DNA of 64,000 nt from NCBI RefSeq assembly GCF_036240795.1, contig NZ_CP108454.1, forward strand, positions 5,826,001 to 5,890,000, given 5' to 3'. This DNA is from Streptomyces sp. NBC_01268. GTDB taxonomy: Bacteria > Actinomycetota > Actinomycetes > Streptomycetales > Streptomycetaceae. Shown here piece by piece: positions 4,754 to 16,072 of this stretch. Numbering within the stretch: position 1 is the first letter of the stretch; each line of letters opens with the position of its first letter. The position numbers and the translations under genes were made by a program. The notes under the pieces are model-generated. The model had not been told where the DNA came from. It made no database searches and saw only the letters and a program-made list of their open reading frames with translations.

Positions 4754-7738
4754 TCACCTCAGGTACGGGCCGTCGGTTCCGATCTTCCCGGGGCCGTCGA
4801 GCACGTACACGCGGAGGTTGCCCTTGCCGGGCGCGGCGACGGACAGCCGACCGCCGGTGACGGTCTTCACGTCACCGGTGACGGCGTCGCGGTACGTGCC
4901 GTCGGGGATGCCGTCGTACGTGGCGCTCCCGCTGACCGTGACGAGCGCGAAGCTGTCCGTGCCGCCCTGCGTGGAGCGGCGCTTGAACGCCATGCCGCCG
5001 CCGACGCCCTCCGTGGAGTACTGGCCCATCTGCAGGGCGGGGACCGCCCGCCGGATGAGGTTGAGCCGCTGGAGGTGCTTGACCAGGGGCTTGTCCAGGG
5101 TGGTGGCGACCGCGCCGCTCGCCGAGGCGACCTTCGAGAAGTCGGCGGCCGTCACCTGTCCCGCGAGGTGGTCCCCGTAGTAGGCGCGGCCCGTCGTGGC
5201 CAGCGGACAGGTGGGCCCGCAGTCGATCTTCTTGCCGGCCTGGAACTCGATCTCGGAGCCGTAGTACAGCGTCGGGATCCCGCGGAAGGTCCACATCAGC
5301 GACATGTTCTCCGCCCAGGCGTCGGTGCCGCCCGCGTAGCGCTCGCTGCTCTTGTTGGGGCCGTAGTCGTGGCTGTCGACATAGACGACGTTGTACGTGG
5401 CGTCGTTGACGCTGTCGTCGGAGTCCTTGCCGTTGGAGAAGGCGTTCTGCGCGTCGCCGAAGTTCATGTGCATGCGCATGTCGATGATGTTCATGCCGGA
5501 GAACTTCGAACGGTCGGGCGTGTGGTAGCTGTTGCCCTGGAGGAAGGCGTTGTTGCTGGTGGGCTGGCCGGCCGGGCCCTGACCCTGCTCGTAGGCGTAC
5601 ATCTCCAGCGCCGCCTTGGTGTCGTCGGCGTCGTACTCCTTGCGCTCCTTCCAGGTGTAGAACTGCGCGGAGTGGTTGACCGAGCCGCGGTTCCACTTGT
5701 CGTTGACGAAGGCGGCCACCTCGCCGAAGACGAAGAAGTTCCTCGCCGCCTCGGAGCCGTGCCGCTGGGCCACCCGCTCCTGGATCGCGGGCAGGAAGCG
5801 GCGGTTCCAGGTGGTGCGCGGGATGTGGACGGCGGTGTCCACGCGGAAGCCGTCGACGCCCATGTCGATGTACTTGTCGTACGCCCCGATCAGGTAGTTC
5901 TGCACGGTCGGGTTCTCGGTGTCGAAGTCGGCCAGGTCCTCGTGCAGCCAGCACGAACGGGAGTCCTCGCCCTCCCAGTTGCCGATCCAGCACTGGTGGT
6001 AGAGCGCCTTCGGGAACATGCCGGAGGTCGGGGAGGGCCACTGGCAGTTGTAGACGGTGTAGCCCTCGGCGCTCTTCCCTCCGGTCGGCACGCCCCAGTT
6101 GACGCAGGTGTTGCCGGCCGGCGCGGCCGTCGACCACAGGTCGCCGTTGTAGTACGACTTGCCGCTCTTGGCGTCGACGGTCAGCCCGTCGTACTCGAAG
6201 CCCGGCTGCCTCTCGTCGTAGTACCAGCTCCACTGCGAGTCGCGGACGCCGTAGACGGTCGGCACGAAGAGGCCCTTGGCGCCCCAGCGGGAGGAGTGGT
6301 TGTAGACCACGTCCTGGTAGATCTTCATGCCCTTGGCGTGGGCGGCGTCGATGAGGTCCTGGTAGGAGGCGCCGGCGGACTCCAGGCGGGGGTCGACCTT
6401 GTAGAAGTCCCAGCCGTGGTAGCCGTGGTAGTCGTAGTCCGAGCGGTTGAGGACCACCGGGGTGATCCACACGGCGGAGAAGCCGAGCGCCTTGATGTAG
6501 TCCAGCTTCTCGACCAGGCCCTTGAAGTCCCCGCGGAACATCGGGTCGCCGTTGGCCGCGTTGCCGGACTTCACGTGCTGGCTGCCGCCCCGGTCGTTCG
6601 CTGGATCGCCGTCGTTGAAGCGGGCGGTGAGGACGAAGTAGATCGGGTCCTTGCGCGGGTCGGTGCCGAGCGGCTTGCCGGGGGCCGGTGCGGCCGGCTT
6701 GTCGCCGGTGGTCGCCTGCGCGGATGCCGAGGCCGCGGAGACGTTCCCGGCCGCGTCCACGGCCCGTACGGCGTAGGTGTACGTGGTCCGTTCGGCCAGG
6801 CCGGTGTCGGTGAGGACGGTCGAGCCGACGCTGGAGACGACGGTCCCGCCGCTGCCGCCGGTGCGGGTGACCTGGTACGCGGTGACCCCGGTGTCGTCCG
6901 TGGCCGGCTGCCAGCTCACGACCACGGACACGCCGTCGGCCTTCGCGGTGAGGCCGGTCGGCGCGGTGGGCGCCTGGACGTCCGGCGGCGCGGCGGCGCA
7001 CGGGTCCTGGGCGTTCGGCGTGACCGTCCGGTTCCTCACCGTGCTCGTGCCGGCCGGGATCGTGTAGTCGGCGCCGTTGTTGTTGTCCCAGACGCCGTTG
7101 CCGTTGTTGAAGGCGGCCTTCAGGGAGGCCGCCGTACCGAGGTCGACGGTCTGCTTCCACCAGCCGGGGCAGGCGGCCCGCATCCCGATGCCGGGGACGG
7201 GCGTCCAGGAGCCGCCGGCCGGCGCGTAGTGGAGGTTCGCGGTCGACCAGCCGAGCGCCTCGGACGAGTAGTACACCGTGGCGGAGGCGGGGGAGGGGGT
7301 GGTGCCGGCGCAGGGGTCGGAGTGGGCCACGACGCCGTCCTTGACGGTGATGTTCCCGGTGCCCAGCGCGTAGTTCGCGCCGTTGTTGTTGTCCCAGGTG
7401 CCGTTGCCGTCGTTGAAGGTGGCCTGCAGTCCGGCGGCGGATCCCAGGTCCACGGTCTTCTTGACCCAGTCGGTGCAGGCCGCCTCCATCGCCACCCCGG
7501 GGACGGTGGTCCAGGAGCCGCCGTCGGGGGCGTAGTGGAGGTCGTACCGCGACCAGTTCCTGGTCTTCGTGTAGTAGAAGACGGTCGCGGTGTTCGCGGT
7601 GGCCGTCTCGGCGGCGGGTGCCGTCCGGGCCGCGGGGGCCGCGGCAGGCGACGGGGACGGGGTCAGGCTCAGCAGCGCGCCGGCTACGGCGGCGGCTGTC
7701 AGGGGTCTGGCCGGTCGGCGGGTGGGGCTGCGTTCCAC
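4754..7738 (-). CDS. Secreted GH13 alpha-amylase with two CBM25-like modules and an FN3 domain
   Basis: Extracellular starch-degrading enzyme, 994 aa from the GTG at 7736-7738, which follows GAGGGAG. Domain order: signal peptide ending near AAAP; two tandem starch-binding modules at about 50-137 and 153-240, each with WDNNNGA and LHYAP-GGSW motifs typical of CBM25; a fibronectin type III domain at about 258-344; and a GH13 catalytic domain from about 362. Conserved GH13 regions are present: DVVYNH at 476-481, the nucleophile Asp at about 634 in DGFRVD, the acid/base Glu at about 673 in FGEVA, and the transition-state Asp at about 791 in VDSHD. A longer in-frame GTG/ATG option upstream adds 38 residues before the signal peptide and is unlikely. 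The gene is preceded by a palindromic LacI-family-like operator. Confidence 0.93.
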   Translation of the reverse strand: MERSPTRRPARPLTAAAVAGALLSLTPSPSPAAAPAARTAPAAETATANTATVFYYTKTRNWSRYDLHYAPDGGSWTTVPGVAMEAACTDWVKKTVDLGSAAGLQATFNDGNGTWDNNNGANYALGTGNITVKDGVVAHSDPCAGTTPSPASATVYYSSEALGWSTANLHYAPAGGSWTPVPGIGMRAACPGWWKQTVDLGTAASLKAAFNNGNGVWDNNNGADYTIPAGTSTVRNRTVTPNAQDPCAAAPPDVQAPTAPTGLTAKADGVSVVVSWQPATDDTGVTAYQVTRTGGSGGTVVSSVGSTVLTDTGLAERTTYTYAVRAVDAAGNVSAASASAQATTGDKPAAPAPGKPLGTDPRKDPIYFVLTARFNDGDPANDRGGSQHVKSGNAANGDPMFRGDFKGLVEKLDYIKALGFSAVWITPVVLNRSDYDYHGYHGWDFYKVDPRLESAGASYQDLIDAAHAKGMKIYQDVVYNHSSRWGAKGLFVPTVYGVRDSQWSWYYDERQPGFEYDGLTVDAKSGKSYYNGDLWSTAAPAGNTCVNWGVPTGGKSAEGYTVYNCQWPSPTSGMFPKALYHQCWIGNWEGEDSRSCWLHEDLADFDTENPTVQNYLIGAYDKYIDMGVDGFRVDTAVHIPRTTWNRRFLPAIQERVAQRHGSEAARNFFVFGEVAAFVNDKWNRGSVNHSAQFYTWKERKEYDADDTKAALEMYAYEQGQGPAGQPTSNNAFLQGNSYHTPDRSKFSGMNIIDMRMHMNFGDAQNAFSNGKDSDDSVNDATYNVVYVDSHDYGPNKSSERYAGGTDAWAENMSLMWTFRGIPTLYYGSEIEFQAGKKIDCGPTCPLATTGRAYYGDHLAGQVTAADFSKVASASGAVATTLDKPLVKHLQRLNLIRRAVPALQMGQYSTEGVGGGMAFKRRSTQGGTDSFALVTVSGSATYDGIPDGTYRDAVTGDVKTVTGGRLSVAAPGKGNLRVYVLDGPGKIGTDGPYLR

Positions 7739-7778
7739 GGGGACTCCCTCAAGGGGCAAGAAGCATCGGAAAGTTGCT

Positions 7779-7790
7779 GCAAGCGCTTGC
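7779..7790. promoter_or_regulatory. Palindromic LacI/MalR-like operator upstream of the amylase
   Basis: GCAAGCGCTTGC is a perfect 12-bp palindrome with a central CG, 41 bp before the amylase start. Its centre and TTGC/GCAA arms match the general form of LacI-family operators, and Streptomyces amylase promoters are known to carry CTTGCA-type repeats under MalR-type control. A repressor responding to maltodextrins is inferred. Confidence 0.6.
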
Positions 7791-7841
7791 GATGGCTGGA
7801 AGTTACCCGCGGTTGATTGAGCCGTAAAGGGAACGCGTGAA

Positions 7842-7883
7842 AGCGCCCGCATGCCGGATTCCGTGATCCGGCATACGGGCGCT
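7842..7883 (-). terminator. Hairpin terminator of the ABC exporter operon
   Basis: Arms 7842-7859 and 7866-7883 pair over 18 bp with one mismatch around a 6-nt loop. It lies 22 bp past the stop of the minus-strand ABC exporter gene and in front of the amylase promoter. There is no clear U tract, as is usual in this genus. Confidence 0.75.
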
Positions 7884-7904
7884 CGGGGTGCGGTCGGCCG
7901 CCTG

Positions 7905-9785
7905 TCAGCCCACCAGGCTGTCGCGCCAGGCCTTGTGCAGGCCCGCGTAGCGGCCCTCGCCGCCGACCAGTTGCTCCGGTGAGCCGTCCTCCACCACCCG
8001 GCCCGACTCCATCACCAGGACCCGGTCCGCCACCTCGACCGTCGACAGCCGGTGGGCGATGACCACCGCCGTGCGGCCCGCGAGGACCGTGTCCATCGCC
8101 CGCTGCACGGCCCGCTCGCCCGGCACGTCCAGCGAGCTGGTCGCCTCGTCCAGGATCAGCACCGCCGGGTCCGCCAGCAACGCCCGCGCGAAGGCGACCA
8201 GTTGGCGCTGACCCGCCGAGATGCGGCCGCCCCGCTTGCGTACGTCGGTGTCGTAGCCGTCCGGCAGCGCCGTGATGAACTCGTGCGCCCCGATCGCCTT
8301 CGCCGCCCGCTCGATCTCCTCGCGGCTCGCCTCCGGGCGGCCGATCGCGATGTTCTCCGCGACCGTCCCCGAGAACAGGAACGCCTCCTGCGTCACCATC
8401 ACCACGCCCCGCCGCAGCTCCGGCGTGGCCAGCTCGCGCAGATCGGCGCCGTCCAGGAGGACCCGGCCCTCCGTCGGGTCGTAGAAGCGCGCCAGCAGCT
8501 TCGCCAGCGTCGACTTGCCCGCACCGGTCGAACCCACGACGGCGACCGTCTGGCCCGCCGGGATCGTCAGGTCGAAGCGCGGCAGCACCTCGCCGCCCGT
8601 CCGGTACGCGAACCGCACCCCCTCGAAGACCACCTCACGGCCCGGCGCACCGGTCCGCGCCGGCAGCTCCCGGGGCGCGGTCGCCTCCGGGACGCCCGGG
8701 CGCTGGGCGAGCAGACCCGCGATCTTCGCGAGCGAGGCCGCCGCCGACTCGTACGAGTTGAGGAACATCCCGAGCCGGTCGATCGGGTCGTACAGGCGCC
8801 GCACGTACAGCACCGCCGCCGCCAGCACGCCCAGCTCCAGCGTGCCGCCCGCGACCCGGTACGCGCCCCACAGGCACATGCCGGCCACCGCCGTGTTCGC
8901 CACCAGCCGGGAACCCACCACGTAGCGGGCCATCTCCAGGAGCGCGTCGCCGTTGCTGCGCTCGTGGCTCGCGTTGAGGACCGCGAACTCCGCGTCGTTC
9001 GCCCGCTCGCGGCGGAACGCCCGCACCGGGCGGATCCCGTTCATCGTCTCCGCGAACTTCACGATCACCCTGGCGATGGCCGTGGACCGGACCGCGAACA
9101 CCGCCGCGGAGCGGCGCCGGTAGCTCCGTACGAGGAGGTACAGCGGGCCGAAGGACGCCACCGCCACCGCGCCCATGCCCAGGTCCAGCCAGAGCAGCAT
9201 CGCCGAGATCGAGAGGAAGGACAGGGCCACCCCGAGGAGTTCCTGCAGGCCCTCGGAGAGCAGCTCGCGCAGCGACTCCACGTCGGTCGTCGAGCGGGAG
9301 ATCAGCCGGCCCGACGTGTAGCGCTCGTGGAAGTCGACGCTGAGCTCCTGCGCGTGCCGGAAGATGCGGCCGCGCAGGTCCAGCAGGACGGCCTGGTTGA
9401 CCCGGGCGGCCGTCCGCACGAACGCGTACTGGAGCAGTGCGCCGGCCGCCGCGCAGGCCAGGTAGCCGAGGGCCACCGCGACGACGGGGGCGTGGTTCCC
9501 GGCGCGGAAGGCCGGCACGCCCTTGTCGATCGCGTACGCGACGAGCAGCGGGCCCGCCTGGAGGGCCAGTTGCTGGACCACGAGGACCAGTACCGCCGCC
9601 AGGACCCTCGCGCGGTGGGCGTGGAGGAGGGAGCGGAGCAGCCTTCCCGTCGCCCCGGGGGCGGTGGGCAGGTCGTCCTGGTCGAAGGGGTCCGCGGGGG
9701 GTGCGGGGGCCGGAGCCTCCGCACCCCTTTCCGCCGCGGGCCGGGTGCCGGTGCCGGTGGCCGGGTCGGTGTTGGTGTCCGTCAT
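7905..9785 (-). CDS. ABC exporter half-transporter, catalytic-site subunit
   Basis: Membrane/ATPase fusion protein, 626 aa, with an N-terminal six-helix exporter domain and a C-terminal nucleotide-binding domain. The Walker A motif GSTGAGKST is at about residue 416, the signature is RISAGQRQ, and Walker B is LILDEATSSLD with the catalytic Glu present. The start ATG at 9783-9785 follows GAGGAAT and overlaps the upstream gene stop as ATGA, so the two are translationally coupled. The partner has a degenerate Walker B. The canonical ATP site therefore combines this subunit's Walker motifs with the partner's LSGGQ signature, and the degenerate site uses this subunit's altered ISAGQ. Together they form a heterodimeric exporter, likely for drugs or lipophilic compounds. 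Confidence 0.92.
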   Translation of the reverse strand: MTDTNTDPATGTGTRPAAERGAEAPAPAPPADPFDQDDLPTAPGATGRLLRSLLHAHRARVLAAVLVLVVQQLALQAGPLLVAYAIDKGVPAFRAGNHAPVVAVALGYLACAAAGALLQYAFVRTAARVNQAVLLDLRGRIFRHAQELSVDFHERYTSGRLISRSTTDVESLRELLSEGLQELLGVALSFLSISAMLLWLDLGMGAVAVASFGPLYLLVRSYRRRSAAVFAVRSTAIARVIVKFAETMNGIRPVRAFRRERANDAEFAVLNASHERSNGDALLEMARYVVGSRLVANTAVAGMCLWGAYRVAGGTLELGVLAAAVLYVRRLYDPIDRLGMFLNSYESAAASLAKIAGLLAQRPGVPEATAPRELPARTGAPGREVVFEGVRFAYRTGGEVLPRFDLTIPAGQTVAVVGSTGAGKSTLAKLLARFYDPTEGRVLLDGADLRELATPELRRGVVMVTQEAFLFSGTVAENIAIGRPEASREEIERAAKAIGAHEFITALPDGYDTDVRKRGGRISAGQRQLVAFARALLADPAVLILDEATSSLDVPGERAVQRAMDTVLAGRTAVVIAHRLSTVEVADRVLVMESGRVVEDGSPEQLVGGEGRYAGLHKAWRDSLVG

Positions 9786-11581
9786 CGGGATTCCTCGGGG
9801 GTCTCGCCGGACATCAGCCATGCGTATTCGGCGTTCTCACGGAGCAGTTCGTGGTGGGTGCCCACGGCCGCCACCCTCCCGCCGGACAGCAGCGCCACCC
9901 GGTCGGCCAGCAGCACCGTCGACGGGCGGTGCGCCACCACCAGGGCGGTCGTGTCGCGCAGCACCTCCCGCAGCGCGGCCTCGACCTTCGCCTCCGTGTG
10001 CACGTCCAGCGCCGACAGCGGGTCGTCCAGGACCAGGAAGCGGGGGCGGCCGACCACCGCCCGCGCCAGGGCCAGGCGCTGTCGCTGGCCGCCGGAGAGG
10101 CTCAGGCCCTGCTCGCCGACCTGCGTGTCCGCGCCCTCGGGCAGCTTCGCCACGAAGGCCTCCGCCTGGGCCACGGCCAGGGCCCGGGCCAGTTCGGGGG
10201 CGGCCGCGTCCTCGTCGGCGCCCATCAGGACGTTCTCGCCGATGCTCGCGGAGAAGAGGGTCGGCTCCTCGAACGCCACCGACACCAGGGAGCGCAGTCG
10301 CTCCCGGGGCATCCGGGTGATGTCCTCGCCGTCCAGGAGGATGCGGCCGGCGGTCGGCTCGTGCAGCCGGGGGACGAGGGCCGTGAGGGTCGTCTTGCCG
10401 GAGCCGGTCGTGCCCACCAGGGCCAGCGTCTCGCCCGGGCGGACGTGCAGGTCCACGTCGGCGAGGAGGGGCGGGCTGTCCGGCGGCGCGTCCGGGTAGC
10501 GGAAGGACACCTTCTCGAAGCGGAGGCCGTCGGACGGGGCCGCCGTCGTCCGCGGCGCGGTGGTCTCCGCTTCCTCCGGGGCGTCCATCACCTCGAAGTA
10601 GCGCTCCGTCGCCGTCGCCGCCTCCTGGCTCATCGCCAGCAGGAAGCCGATCGACTCCACCGGCCAGCGCAGCGCCAGCGCCGTCGACAGGAACGCCACC
10701 AGGGTGCCCGCCGACAGCTGCCCGTCCGCCACCTGCACCGTGCCCAGCACCAGGGCCGCCCCCACGGCCAGTTCGGGCAGGAGCGTCATCACCGCCCAGA
10801 TCCAGGCCAGCAGCCGGGCCTTGGCCAGTTCCGTGCCGCGGAGCTGTTCCGCCAGGTTCCGGAACGCCTCCGCCTGACTGCGGTGGCGGCCGAAGCCCTT
10901 CACGATGCGGATGCCGAGGACGCTCTCCTCGACGACCGTGGTCAGGTCGCCCACCTGGTCCTGCGCCCGCCGGGTCACCACCGAGTACCGCCGCTCGAAG
11001 AGCCAGCAGAGCAGCACCATCGGCCCGACCGGGGCCAGCAGCACCAGGCCCAGCGTCCACTCCTGGGCGAACAGCACCGCGTAACCGACCAGGATCGTCA
11101 CCGCGTTGACCAGCAGGAAGGTCAGCGGGAAGGCCAGGAACAGGCGGACCATCATGAGGTCCGTCGTGCCCCGCGAGAGGAGCTGGCCCGACGCCCAGCG
11201 GTCGTGGAAGGCGATCGGCAGCCGCTGCACGTGCCCGTACAGGTCGGCGCGCATCGACGCCTCCACCCCCGCGAGGGGACGCGCCACCAGCCACCGCCGG
11301 ACGCCGAAGAGCACCGCCTCGGTGATCCCCAGCAACAGCAGGTACAGCGCGCCCAGCCACACCCCCGTCGCGTCGCCGTCCGTGACCGGGCCGTCGACCA
11401 GCCACTTCAGGACCAGCGGGATCACGAGGGACAGACAGGAGGCCACGATCGCGACGAACGCGGCCGTGAAGAGGCGGGCGCGCACCGGGCGTACGTACGG
11501 CCACAGGCGCAGCAGCGTGCGCACGGTCGAGCGTCCCCCGGCGGCGGGCGATTCCTTGATGGGTACATGTTCTGTGGGCAT
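9782..11581 (-). CDS. ABC exporter half-transporter, degenerate-site subunit
   Basis: First gene of the two-gene exporter operon, 599 aa, with an N-terminal transmembrane exporter domain and a C-terminal ATPase. Walker A is GTTGSGKTT at about residue 390, and the signature is the canonical LSGGQRQRLALARAV. Walker B reads FLVLDDPLSALD, with Asp in place of the catalytic Glu. An H-loop His is present in VVAHRPST. The Glu-to-Asp change is the hallmark of the non-hydrolysing half in heterodimeric exporters of the TM287/288 and BmrCD type. The start ATG at 11579-11581 has only a weak ribosome site. A 14-bp palindrome about 140 bp upstream may be a regulator site. Confidence 0.92.
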   Translation of the reverse strand: MPTEHVPIKESPAAGGRSTVRTLLRLWPYVRPVRARLFTAAFVAIVASCLSLVIPLVLKWLVDGPVTDGDATGVWLGALYLLLLGITEAVLFGVRRWLVARPLAGVEASMRADLYGHVQRLPIAFHDRWASGQLLSRGTTDLMMVRLFLAFPLTFLLVNAVTILVGYAVLFAQEWTLGLVLLAPVGPMVLLCWLFERRYSVVTRRAQDQVGDLTTVVEESVLGIRIVKGFGRHRSQAEAFRNLAEQLRGTELAKARLLAWIWAVMTLLPELAVGAALVLGTVQVADGQLSAGTLVAFLSTALALRWPVESIGFLLAMSQEAATATERYFEVMDAPEEAETTAPRTTAAPSDGLRFEKVSFRYPDAPPDSPPLLADVDLHVRPGETLALVGTTGSGKTTLTALVPRLHEPTAGRILLDGEDITRMPRERLRSLVSVAFEEPTLFSASIGENVLMGADEDAAAPELARALAVAQAEAFVAKLPEGADTQVGEQGLSLSGGQRQRLALARAVVGRPRFLVLDDPLSALDVHTEAKVEAALREVLRDTTALVVAHRPSTVLLADRVALLSGGRVAAVGTHHELLRENAEYAWLMSGETPEESR

Positions 11582-11716
11582 CAGGTCCGAGCCTACGGTT
11601 CACCCCTGACCGGACTCATGTGGTTTTCCGGCCACCGGCCAGGTCGGAGAGGTCGGGCGCCGACCGCTGCCGGTCGTGCCGGACGGTGCCGGTCGGTGCC
11701 GGTCGTAGGGCCGCAT

Positions 11717-11730
11717 CAACCGATCGGTTG
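11717..11730. promoter_or_regulatory. 14-bp perfect palindrome, TetR-type operator candidate
   Basis: CAACCGATCGGTTG is a perfect palindrome in the 209-bp space between the divergent ABC exporter and the response-regulator remnant. Size and symmetry suit a TetR- or MarR-family dimer. No such regulator gene is adjacent, so the partner is unknown. Confidence 0.45.
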
Positions 11731-11790
11731 ACCGGCGGTCGAGCGGGACGGCCGATACCGGCGGGCCGCGACTTTCACGAACCTTGGGGC

Positions 11791-12375
11791 ATGCCCGTGA
11801 TCGAGGTTCAGGACCTGCACAAGGCCTACGGCGAGCGGAAGGCCGCCGACGGCGTCGCCCTCGCCCTGAGCCTCGACCCGGACGTCGTCCTCATGGACCT
11901 GCGGATGCCCGGCGGAGGCGGCGTCGACGCCATCGGCGAACTCACCCGGCGCGGCGCCCGCGCCCGGATCCTCGTCCTCACCACGTACGACACGGACACC
12001 GACACCCTCCCCGCCATCGAAGCGGGCGCCACCGGCTACCTCCTCAAGGACACGCCCCGCGAGGAGCTGTTCGCCGCCGTCCGCGCCGCCGCCGCGGGCC
12101 GCACCCTGCTCTCCCCGGCCGTCGCCGGCCGACTCGTCACCCGCGTCCGCACCCCCGCCGCACCCGCCGACGAGCCCCTCTCCGCCCGCGAACACGAGAT
12201 CCTCGAACTCGTCGCCAAGGGCACCTCCAACCGCGAGATCGCCGCCGAGCTCTTCATCGGCGAGGCCACCGTCAAGACCCACCTCACGCACGTCTACGCC
12301 AAGCTGGGCGCCAAGGACCGCGCCGCGGCCGTCGCCGTCGCCTACCAGCGCGGCATCCTCGGCCGCACCGGCTGA
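11791..12375 (+). pseudogene. Chimeric remnant: ABC-ATPase N-terminus joined to a truncated LuxR-type response regulator
   Basis: The frame is open for 194 aa but the protein is a hybrid. Residues 1 to about 22 (MPVIEVQDLHKAYGERKAAD) are the start of an ABC-2 type ATP-binding protein, normally followed by DGVSF and, further on, a Walker A motif that is absent here. From about residue 27 (SLDPDVVLMDLRMPG) it is the second half of a NarL-type receiver domain, keeping the phospho-acceptor Asp at about 36. An intact LuxR HTH follows (LSAREHEILELVAKGTSNRE, about 128-190). The receiver's first strand with its acidic pair, and first helix, are missing. Streptomyces often carry ATPase, permease, histidine kinase and regulator in that order, so an in-frame deletion from the first gene into the last explains the joint. 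It may still make a DNA-binding protein, but phosphorylation control is probably lost. Confidence 0.82.
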
Positions 12376-12617: not shown

Positions 12618-13867
12618 ATGAACGACTCCAGGACGCGCCGCCGCGCCGCCGCGCTGGTGCTGCCGCTGCTGCTGAGCACACTGGCCGCCTGTCAGTCCGG
12701 CGGCCGGGACGGGAAGTCCGCGGCCGCGACGCCCTCGCCCTCGCCCACACCGATCCCCGTCTTCTCGGTGCGGCTCGACGACCAGCTCTCCGCCGCGAGC
12801 CGCGCCACCACGGCGACCGGCTCCGCCGCCTTCACCTGGACGCTCCGCTACGGCTCCGCCAAGGGCACCGCGGTGGAACGCGTGACCGGCGTGCAGGACT
12901 ACGCCAAGGACACCGCGCGGGCCGAGCGGGTGGTCCGGATCCCGCGCCGCTTCCCGGCGGACGCGGCGCGCGAGCTGGGCGGGGAGCCCGCCGGCGCGCG
13001 CAAGCCGCAGACCTTCGCCGTCTCGGGCAACGAGGTCTCCTACCGCACCGCGGACGGCGACTGGCTGCGCTACTCCTCCGCCGCCCCCGGCGAGGTCGTC
13101 GACCTGATGGACGGCGCCCTCCAGCGGGCCGGCGAGACCGCGCCGTACGGCGGCACCCTCGCCGAGGTCGTGAGTGTCGCCGACGCGAGCAAAGCGCCGG
13201 TCAAGGGCGCCGACGGCAGCCGCACCTACCAGGTCGACGTCCCGCTCACCTACGCCTCCGTCGCGCTGCCACGGGCGCTCGACATCAGCCAGGACAGCGC
13301 GCGGCAGGCCCCCGGGCCGATCCGGACGACGGTCGTCCTCGACCGCGACGGGCGGCTCCTGCGGGCCACCGCCGACTACGCCCCCGCGCTCAAGCCGCTG
13401 CACGACGCACACCTCCTGAAGGGAGTGACCTCGCTGCGCGCCGAGTACACGCTCTCCGGCCACGGGAGGACGCCCGTGCCGCCGCCGCCCGCCGGCGGGA
13501 AGTCCCGTGACGCCGCGAAGGTCCTGACGGACGTGCACAAGGTGAAGCCGGGCGCCTGCGCCTCCCTCGACACGGGGCTCGGCACCCTGGCCCTCGTCCG
13601 GGTCGTGCCCTGCGGCGCGCGGGCCGACCTCCGCGTCTTCGGCCAGGTCAGGTTCAAGGAGACCGTCCAGGGCGACCCGGACGGCGTCGCCGTCCGGGAG
13701 GGCCAGGACCGGTGCAAGGCCGCGTACCGCTCGGCGCCGCGCTCCTGGACCGCCGACGGGCGGCCCGCCGACCGGTTCACGACCTACGGACAGGGCACCA
13801 CCTCCTCCGCGTACACCGGCCCCGACGTCGACGTCGAGGGCGACTACACCTGCCTCGTCGAGACGCC

Positions 13868-13871
<4 letters not shown>
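12618..13871 (+). CDS. Lipoprotein with C-terminal septum-formation-like domain
   Basis: Predicted 417-aa lipoprotein on the outer face of the membrane. The start ATG follows a G-rich ribosome site. The lipobox LSTLAAC places the acylated Cys near residue 25, followed by a Ser/Pro/Thr-rich linker. The middle of the protein resembles the LppX/LprG-like periplasmic fold, with repeated beta strands (TWTLRYGSAKGTAVERVTGV and SYRTADGDWLRY). The last 120 residues (VKPGACASLDTG, LVRVVPCGARADLRVFGQV and YTCLVETP) contain paired cysteines like the septum-formation/DUF4190-associated domain. The stop overlaps the stop of the convergent glgX inside a shared CTAG. Function is not established, and the family calls are by eye. 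Confidence 0.8.

Positions 13872-16072
<2,201 letters not shown>

Follow-up and report, generated by a model that had tools for sequence, protein, structure and literature searches.

A probable remnant of a four-gene signalling operon in Streptomyces: an in-frame chimera of ATPase and response regulator

Overview

The 64,000-nucleotide stretch of the Streptomyces sp. NBC_01268 genome analysed here (the window) contains an open frame of 194 codons in which the start of an ABC-2 ATPase gene runs in frame into a response regulator (RR) that has lost the beginning of its receiver domain and keeps its helix-turn-helix (HTH). This chimera is probably the decaying remnant of a dispensable operon, held in frame by chance. 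Relatives carry an intact ancestor at the same place, and comparison with them shows that one deletion, about 3.1 kb long, joined the ATPase gene to the RR gene at short GC-rich matches. It removed most of an ATPase/permease/kinase/RR operon and left the chimera behind the original upstream region with its palindrome. In the proposed history, an accessory signalling operon has been eroded repeatedly in Streptomyces and the open frame is accidental. New here, beyond a first-pass annotation of the same DNA, are nine other internal deletions, a probable operator palindrome and an excess of changes at near-invariant RR sites. Within one genus, a single locus thus ranges from the intact operon through ten different internal deletions and scraps to absence. 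It is a test case for the loss of a sensor system, for whether an output domain left stranded maintains or upsets regulation and for whether an accidental in-frame chimera can take on a role.

The ancestral operon and its neighbours

The nearest named relatives of the window locus belong nearly all to Streptomyces, and their operon has the order ABC-2 ATPase, permease, histidine kinase (HK), NarL-type RR. The first-pass annotation had described this order as common in the genus, and all four genes are indeed present on 78 of 80 named loci; the two misses are L107, a 5.7-kb contig that has neither ATPase nor permease, and L146, which has a deletion of its own. On locus L174 (genome G017) the ATPase lies at 7263-8168, the permease at 8165-8918, the kinase at 8919-10271 and the RR at 10264-10914, with the Pfam domains ABC_tran, ABC2_membrane, HisKA_3/HATPase_c and Response_reg/GerE, respectively. 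The L174 operon is at a different genomic place, not between the exporter and glgX, the two genes that flank the window locus (Table 1) and that are found together with all four operon genes on 63 of the 80 named loci. The right neighbour in the window is identified as GlgX by NCBIfam TIGR02100 (948 bits, 13871-15799). Alignment with the corresponding region of relatives, as had been proposed, recovered the four-gene cluster and defined the junction. Intact operons such as those of L174, L233 and L175 have the ATPase start, the RR body and the upstream palindrome in common with the window, which, unlike them, has no permease, no HK, no receiver start and little of the ATPase. The two-component pair suggested for the equivalent place in S. 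coelicolor may be SCO5454/5455.

Between the RR remnant and glgX the window holds a lipoprotein-like gene of 417 aa (12618-13871) that has no Pfam match and no relative on the 80 named loci; a relative with 46% identity occupies the same place in genome G248. On L175-L178, four of the seven loci compared, the glgX region follows directly after the RR.

The chimeric reading frame and its junction

Codons 1-22 of the chimera, MPVIEVQDLHKAYGERKAADGV, line up with the N-termini of ATPases, for example that of L174, MPMIEIQDLHKAYGDRKAVDGV, and the frame continues into the RR, from about RR codon 42, without a stop. The Pfam model PF00072 (Response_reg) covers residues 18-98 and enters at profile position 31 of 111, PF00196 (GerE) is complete, and PF00005 (ABC_tran, with the Walker motifs and signature) has no match in the 194 residues. 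The best NCBIfam model, NF007935, begins at position 40 of 216 and scores 137 bits where its cut-off is 250. Reading frame, Pfam and the alignment of N-termini agree on what had been proposed, an ATPase start fused in frame to a headless RR with an intact HTH, with the difference that the RR text begins at codon 18-23 instead of about codon 27.

The RR has lost about its first 41 residues, and the stretch that holds the acidic pair in relatives is replaced in the alignment, so that the chimera does not have the complete receiver of the NarL/FixJ family. The loss of the acidic pair had been noted correctly, but other receiver landmarks remain: D36 and K86, the phosphoacceptor Asp and the conserved Lys of the receiver, fall in invariant columns of the RR alignment. 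If the chimera is translated, normal Mg-dependent phosphorylation by any kinase should fail, as the first strand and the acidic pair are absent.

Comparison of L174 with the window by blastn gives two pieces, 11712-11864 and 11848-12366, which overlap at 11848-11864 of the window and are separated by about 3.0 kb in L174. Measured from the ATPase start to the DPD codons of the RR in L174, L233 and L234, the deletion amounts to about 3.06-3.18 kb. One deletion of several kilobases between short GC-rich matches, as first suggested, explains the junction, which is to be placed somewhat to the left of the proposed 11850-11874 (Table 1). Two routes fit the aligned sequences: either the genes joined at GGCGTC and one base was substituted, or they joined at AGGCCG and 9 bp were lost. 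The position of A19 is V in 84 of 85 ATPase N-termini and L in one, and A in the remnant of genome G236; RRs often read AADGV near the junction, where the chimera has three codons fewer than they do.

An assembly collapse that hides a whole operon in the living strain is hardly credible. No other strain of the species turned up for comparison, but the locus lies in one contig of 8.5 Mb, the junction ends have only short strings in common, and nine other genomes have separate deletions at the operon.

Table 1. Features of the chimeric locus, its related palindrome locus and the other deletion alleles (window positions unless a locus or genome is named; numbers after gene names in allele rows are codons)
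Feature	Position	Strand	Basis or remark
Divergent ABC exporter half-transporter, left syntenic neighbour	9782..11581	-	Pfam; on 73/80 named loci
Perfect 16-bp palindrome TCAACCGATCGGTTGA, probable operator of ancestral operon	11716..11731	.	75 bp before ATG
Second conserved block TCGAGCG..GG..GAT, 3' of palindrome, possible promoter element	11739..11756	+	86 aligned upstream regions
Chimeric ORF, 194 aa, ATPase start + headless NarL-type RR	11791..12375	+
ATPase-derived codons 1-22; codons 18-22 from either parent	11791..11856	+	85 ATPase N-termini compared
Junction zone; exact base not resolvable	11840..11856	.	short strings AGGCCG and GGCGTC common to ATPase and RR genes
RR-derived part: receiver from alpha2/beta3 on, D36 and K86, linker, HTH	11857..12372	+
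LuxR/GerE HTH, residues 129-184	12175..12342	+	Pfam E 4.5e-20; confidently modelled
glgX glycogen debranching gene (start approximate), right syntenic neighbour	13868..16000	-	on 65/80 named loci
HbpS-like/SenS-like/SenR-like locus	L202:1914-4504, 4.5 Mb		only other exact palindrome copy in genome
Deletion allele, G013	ATPase 26 to end of HK		out of frame; RR intact
Deletion allele, G123	ATPase 152 to RR 27		out of frame; same contig as L146, S. cahuitamycinicus 13K301
Deletion allele, G184	palindrome region to RR 52
Deletion allele, G244	palindrome region to HK 322		RR intact
Deletion allele, G121	permease 59 to RR 104		out of frame
Deletion allele, G175	permease 209 to RR 130		out of frame
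Deletion allele, G194	permease 97 to RR 45		out of frame; further frameshift
Deletion allele, G068	permease kept, then RR 166-214 only
Deletion allele, G236	ATPase 1-41 + RR from about 132		one frame, split by insert with stop

Distribution in the genus

A search of 392 genomes of the genus found the RR at E 1e-70 in 183, the HK at 1e-70 in 186 and the ATPase at 1e-85 in 193, the weakest of the ATPase matches looking like paralogues. Among the matches listed, the fusion is matched end to end (query 1-194) in the window's genome only, and any other fusion would rank at the top of the listing. It is thus no orphan RR conserved across species (one of 392 genomes among the matches listed). The first-pass annotation had named two observations that would speak against its view: the same fusion in many distant strains, of which none appeared among these matches, and a normal receiver gene with the same N-terminal text, of which there is none among 22 aligned normal RRs. 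The window's genome has no close second copy of the HK or the ATPase, the best paralogues being 45% and 46% identical, respectively. A cognate kinase for the chimera is absent both nearby and elsewhere in the genome, and the four-gene neighbourhood is gone.

Recurrent deletions of the operon

The lists of genomes with RR, HK and ATPase were compared by eye. At the thresholds used, an RR without an HK occurs in the window's genome, G013, G123, G184 and G244, and an ATPase accompanied by neither RR nor HK in G068, G121, G175 and G194; the G236 allele was found via the palindrome search. These nine other genomes each have their own internal deletion of the operon with different end points (Table 1), and in G117 an HTH scrap is all that remains. 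At these thresholds G399, which is 55% complete, has an HK without RR or ATPase, and G136, G154 and G266 have RR and HK without ATPase, perhaps at contig ends. The join in G236 is split by a MITE-like insert (L240:1677-1862, 177 bp net) with 36-nt inverted-repeat arms that are 86% complementary and a 9-bp flanking repeat, CCTAGGCCC.

Gene-to-gene joins are in frame in two of seven cases (the window and G236) and out of frame in G013 (into the HK), G123, G175, G121 and G194. This is about chance level, and there is therefore no excess of open joins. The right end of the deletion lies at or before RR codon 166 in all ten alleles, so that the recognition helix survives in every one of them. A bias towards keeping the RR was considered and rejected: it was suggested by the five of 183 genomes with RR and no HK, but that set had been selected on RR presence. 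The reverse comparison gave the four ATPase-bearing genomes with partial RRs (G068, G121, G175 and G194), which means that the end points are spread.

The complementary picture comes from an exporter search in the 80 genomes lacking the operon at thresholds, 56 of which have the exporter and 30 of which had the locus read. Exporter and glgX are separated by 53-411 bp, with no operon gene between them, at 19 of the 30 loci; ten, one of them that of G117, have no glgX within 1.5 kb, and the remaining one is L214 (G194), the deletion allele with an ATPase. Absence of the operon where exporter and glgX adjoin may reflect loss or original absence. A lone exact palindrome is present on L218, among these 19 loci.

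Constraint on the response regulator part

The analysis of constraint used 110 RR sequences, compared over 160 codons with 91 near-invariant sites. Three short sequences and another 12 whose extracted range contained a stop had been dropped; L199, which is rich in errors (8 private changes, in a genome 88% complete), was kept in the near-invariant count and left out of the pN/pS and HTH tests. The window RR has four changes at the 91 near-invariant sites, the most of the 109 sequences other than L199, while 94 of the 110 have none. Its mean pN/pS is 0.264 against a median of 0.216, which ranks it 8 of 109, the top five coming from another family, and comparison with its eight nearest relatives gives a dN/dS of 0.22-0.26. 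At near-invariant HTH sites within the last 49 codons, eight truncated alleles deviate in 4 of 256 cells and 111 intact ones in 8 of 3552 (Fisher p 0.006, not corrected for kinship, with sites defined on the intact set and thus mildly unfair to the truncated alleles); five of the eight show no deviation. The excess at near-invariant sites is small and may point towards relaxed constraint, with dN/dS still low.

Predicted structure

In the AlphaFold2 model the HTH blocks have pLDDT 86-92, while residues 1-20 average 44-49 and the pTM is 0.47. Ahead of alpha2 the model has a strand (residues 3-6) and a short helix (9-13), and Foldseek superposes the DesR receiver alone with an rmsd of 1.8-2.9 over 93-99 columns. 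These features could be taken to mean that the ATPase N-terminus stands in for strand beta1, so that a smaller receiver still folds and comes under new regulation. Such a replacement is very improbable given the low confidence of residues 1-20 and of the overall model and the absence of the acidic pair. The input alignment, moreover, consists of full-length receivers and pulls the model towards a complete one, and the full-length Foldseek matches, to NarL-family regulators, stay below TM 0.5 with an rmsd above 11.

The upstream palindrome

In relatives, the pattern TCRRCCGATCGGYYGA is located 74-108 bp (mostly 75-76) upstream of the ATPase start, exact in 64 of 85 cases, with one mismatch in 18 and two in three. 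It is exact in eight of the ten deletion alleles and has one mismatch in G244 and G175. The 8.5-Mb genome of the window contains the pattern twice and the reversed control not at all; across the genus the site occurs in 245 of 392 genomes, with a control count of 0 in each row. A consensus scan for sigma-70 promoters and terminators at the locus gave no match. Thirty palindrome loci were read, one per genome, of which 13 adjoin the operon, 11 a senSR-type pair and six neither (L239, L241, L246, L251, L254 and L258); these six may mark further target genes.

The other copy in the window's genome has an HbpS-like gene (PF03928, E 7.2e-31) on one side and a HisKA_3 kinase/NarL RR pair on the other. 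The RR of this senSR-like pair is one of the two closest paralogues of the chimera RR (56%); the equally close one, in a pair at 6.73 Mb (56%), has no palindrome site. This distribution supports the palindrome as a binding site common to the operon RR and its senSR-like cousin, and it makes the palindrome a candidate site for the regulator, which it may connect with the HbpS-SenS-SenR redox switch. If the chimera is translated, its intact HTH could bind its own upstream palindrome and the one at hbpS/senS, at best weakly and blind to any signal.

The kept operator raises the question of whether the chimera works as a kinase-independent regulator, its HTH freed by truncation of the receiver to bind its own promoter and the hbpS/senS site, with repeated loss of the kinase half being adaptive in several lineages. 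Freedom from the kinase had already been suggested. A working regulator would suit the survival of recognition helix and palindrome (with at most one mismatch) in ten of ten deletion alleles, the zero chance control, the only other exact site lying beside the senSR-like paralogue and the confidently modelled HTH. Such a regulator is nevertheless unlikely, since in-frame joins stay at chance level, the ATPase or permease frame does not enter the RR in G123, G175, G121 and G194, truncated copies have more changes at near-invariant sites, and 19 of the 30 operon-less loci have exporter and glgX close together. In addition, the alleles were found via RR, ATPase or palindrome remnants, and the flanking genes alone may set the limits of the deletions. 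The wider proposal that Streptomyces repeatedly convert the operon into headless, kinase-free HTH regulators with the operator kept, an adaptive rewiring seen so far in ten genomes, is judged unlikely; if true, headless regulators could also occupy the hbpS/senSR switch. Decay of a dispensable operon is favoured by the pattern across relatives: the intact operon in them, the lack of a close HK or ATPase copy, the separate deletions elsewhere, the chance-level share of open joins and the signs of relaxed constraint support it, while the open frame, the low dN/dS, the perfect palindrome, the retention of operator and recognition helix and the five truncated alleles with an unchanged HTH count against it. 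A deletion of recent date would leave this picture whether or not the chimera has a function.

Relation to known systems

Like the HbpS-SenS-SenR system of S. coelicolor (SCO4274-4276), the window's genome has an HK-RR pair beside an HbpS-like gene, here with the palindrome, and this pair is intact, unlike the window operon. The palindrome was expected to match the published SenR site, but it bears no resemblance to the predicted SenR sites, of the CGGGCCGCGTCCCG type, in the available text of PMC4991794. By layout, the ancestral operon can be likened to AbrA1/A2 (SCO1744/45), which PMC9739842 describes as forming one self-regulated operon with the ABC genes SCO1742/43: both combine a two-component system with an ABC transporter, and AbrA1/A2 is intact. 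No paper on the fusion or erosion of such operons was present among the literature matches listed. The atypical or orphan RRs BldM, WhiI and RedZ resemble the chimera in having no adjoining kinase. BldM and WhiI are established regulators, as is RedZ (PMC11043171); unlike these three, the chimera has lost its receiver start and occurs, among the matches listed, in one genome only.
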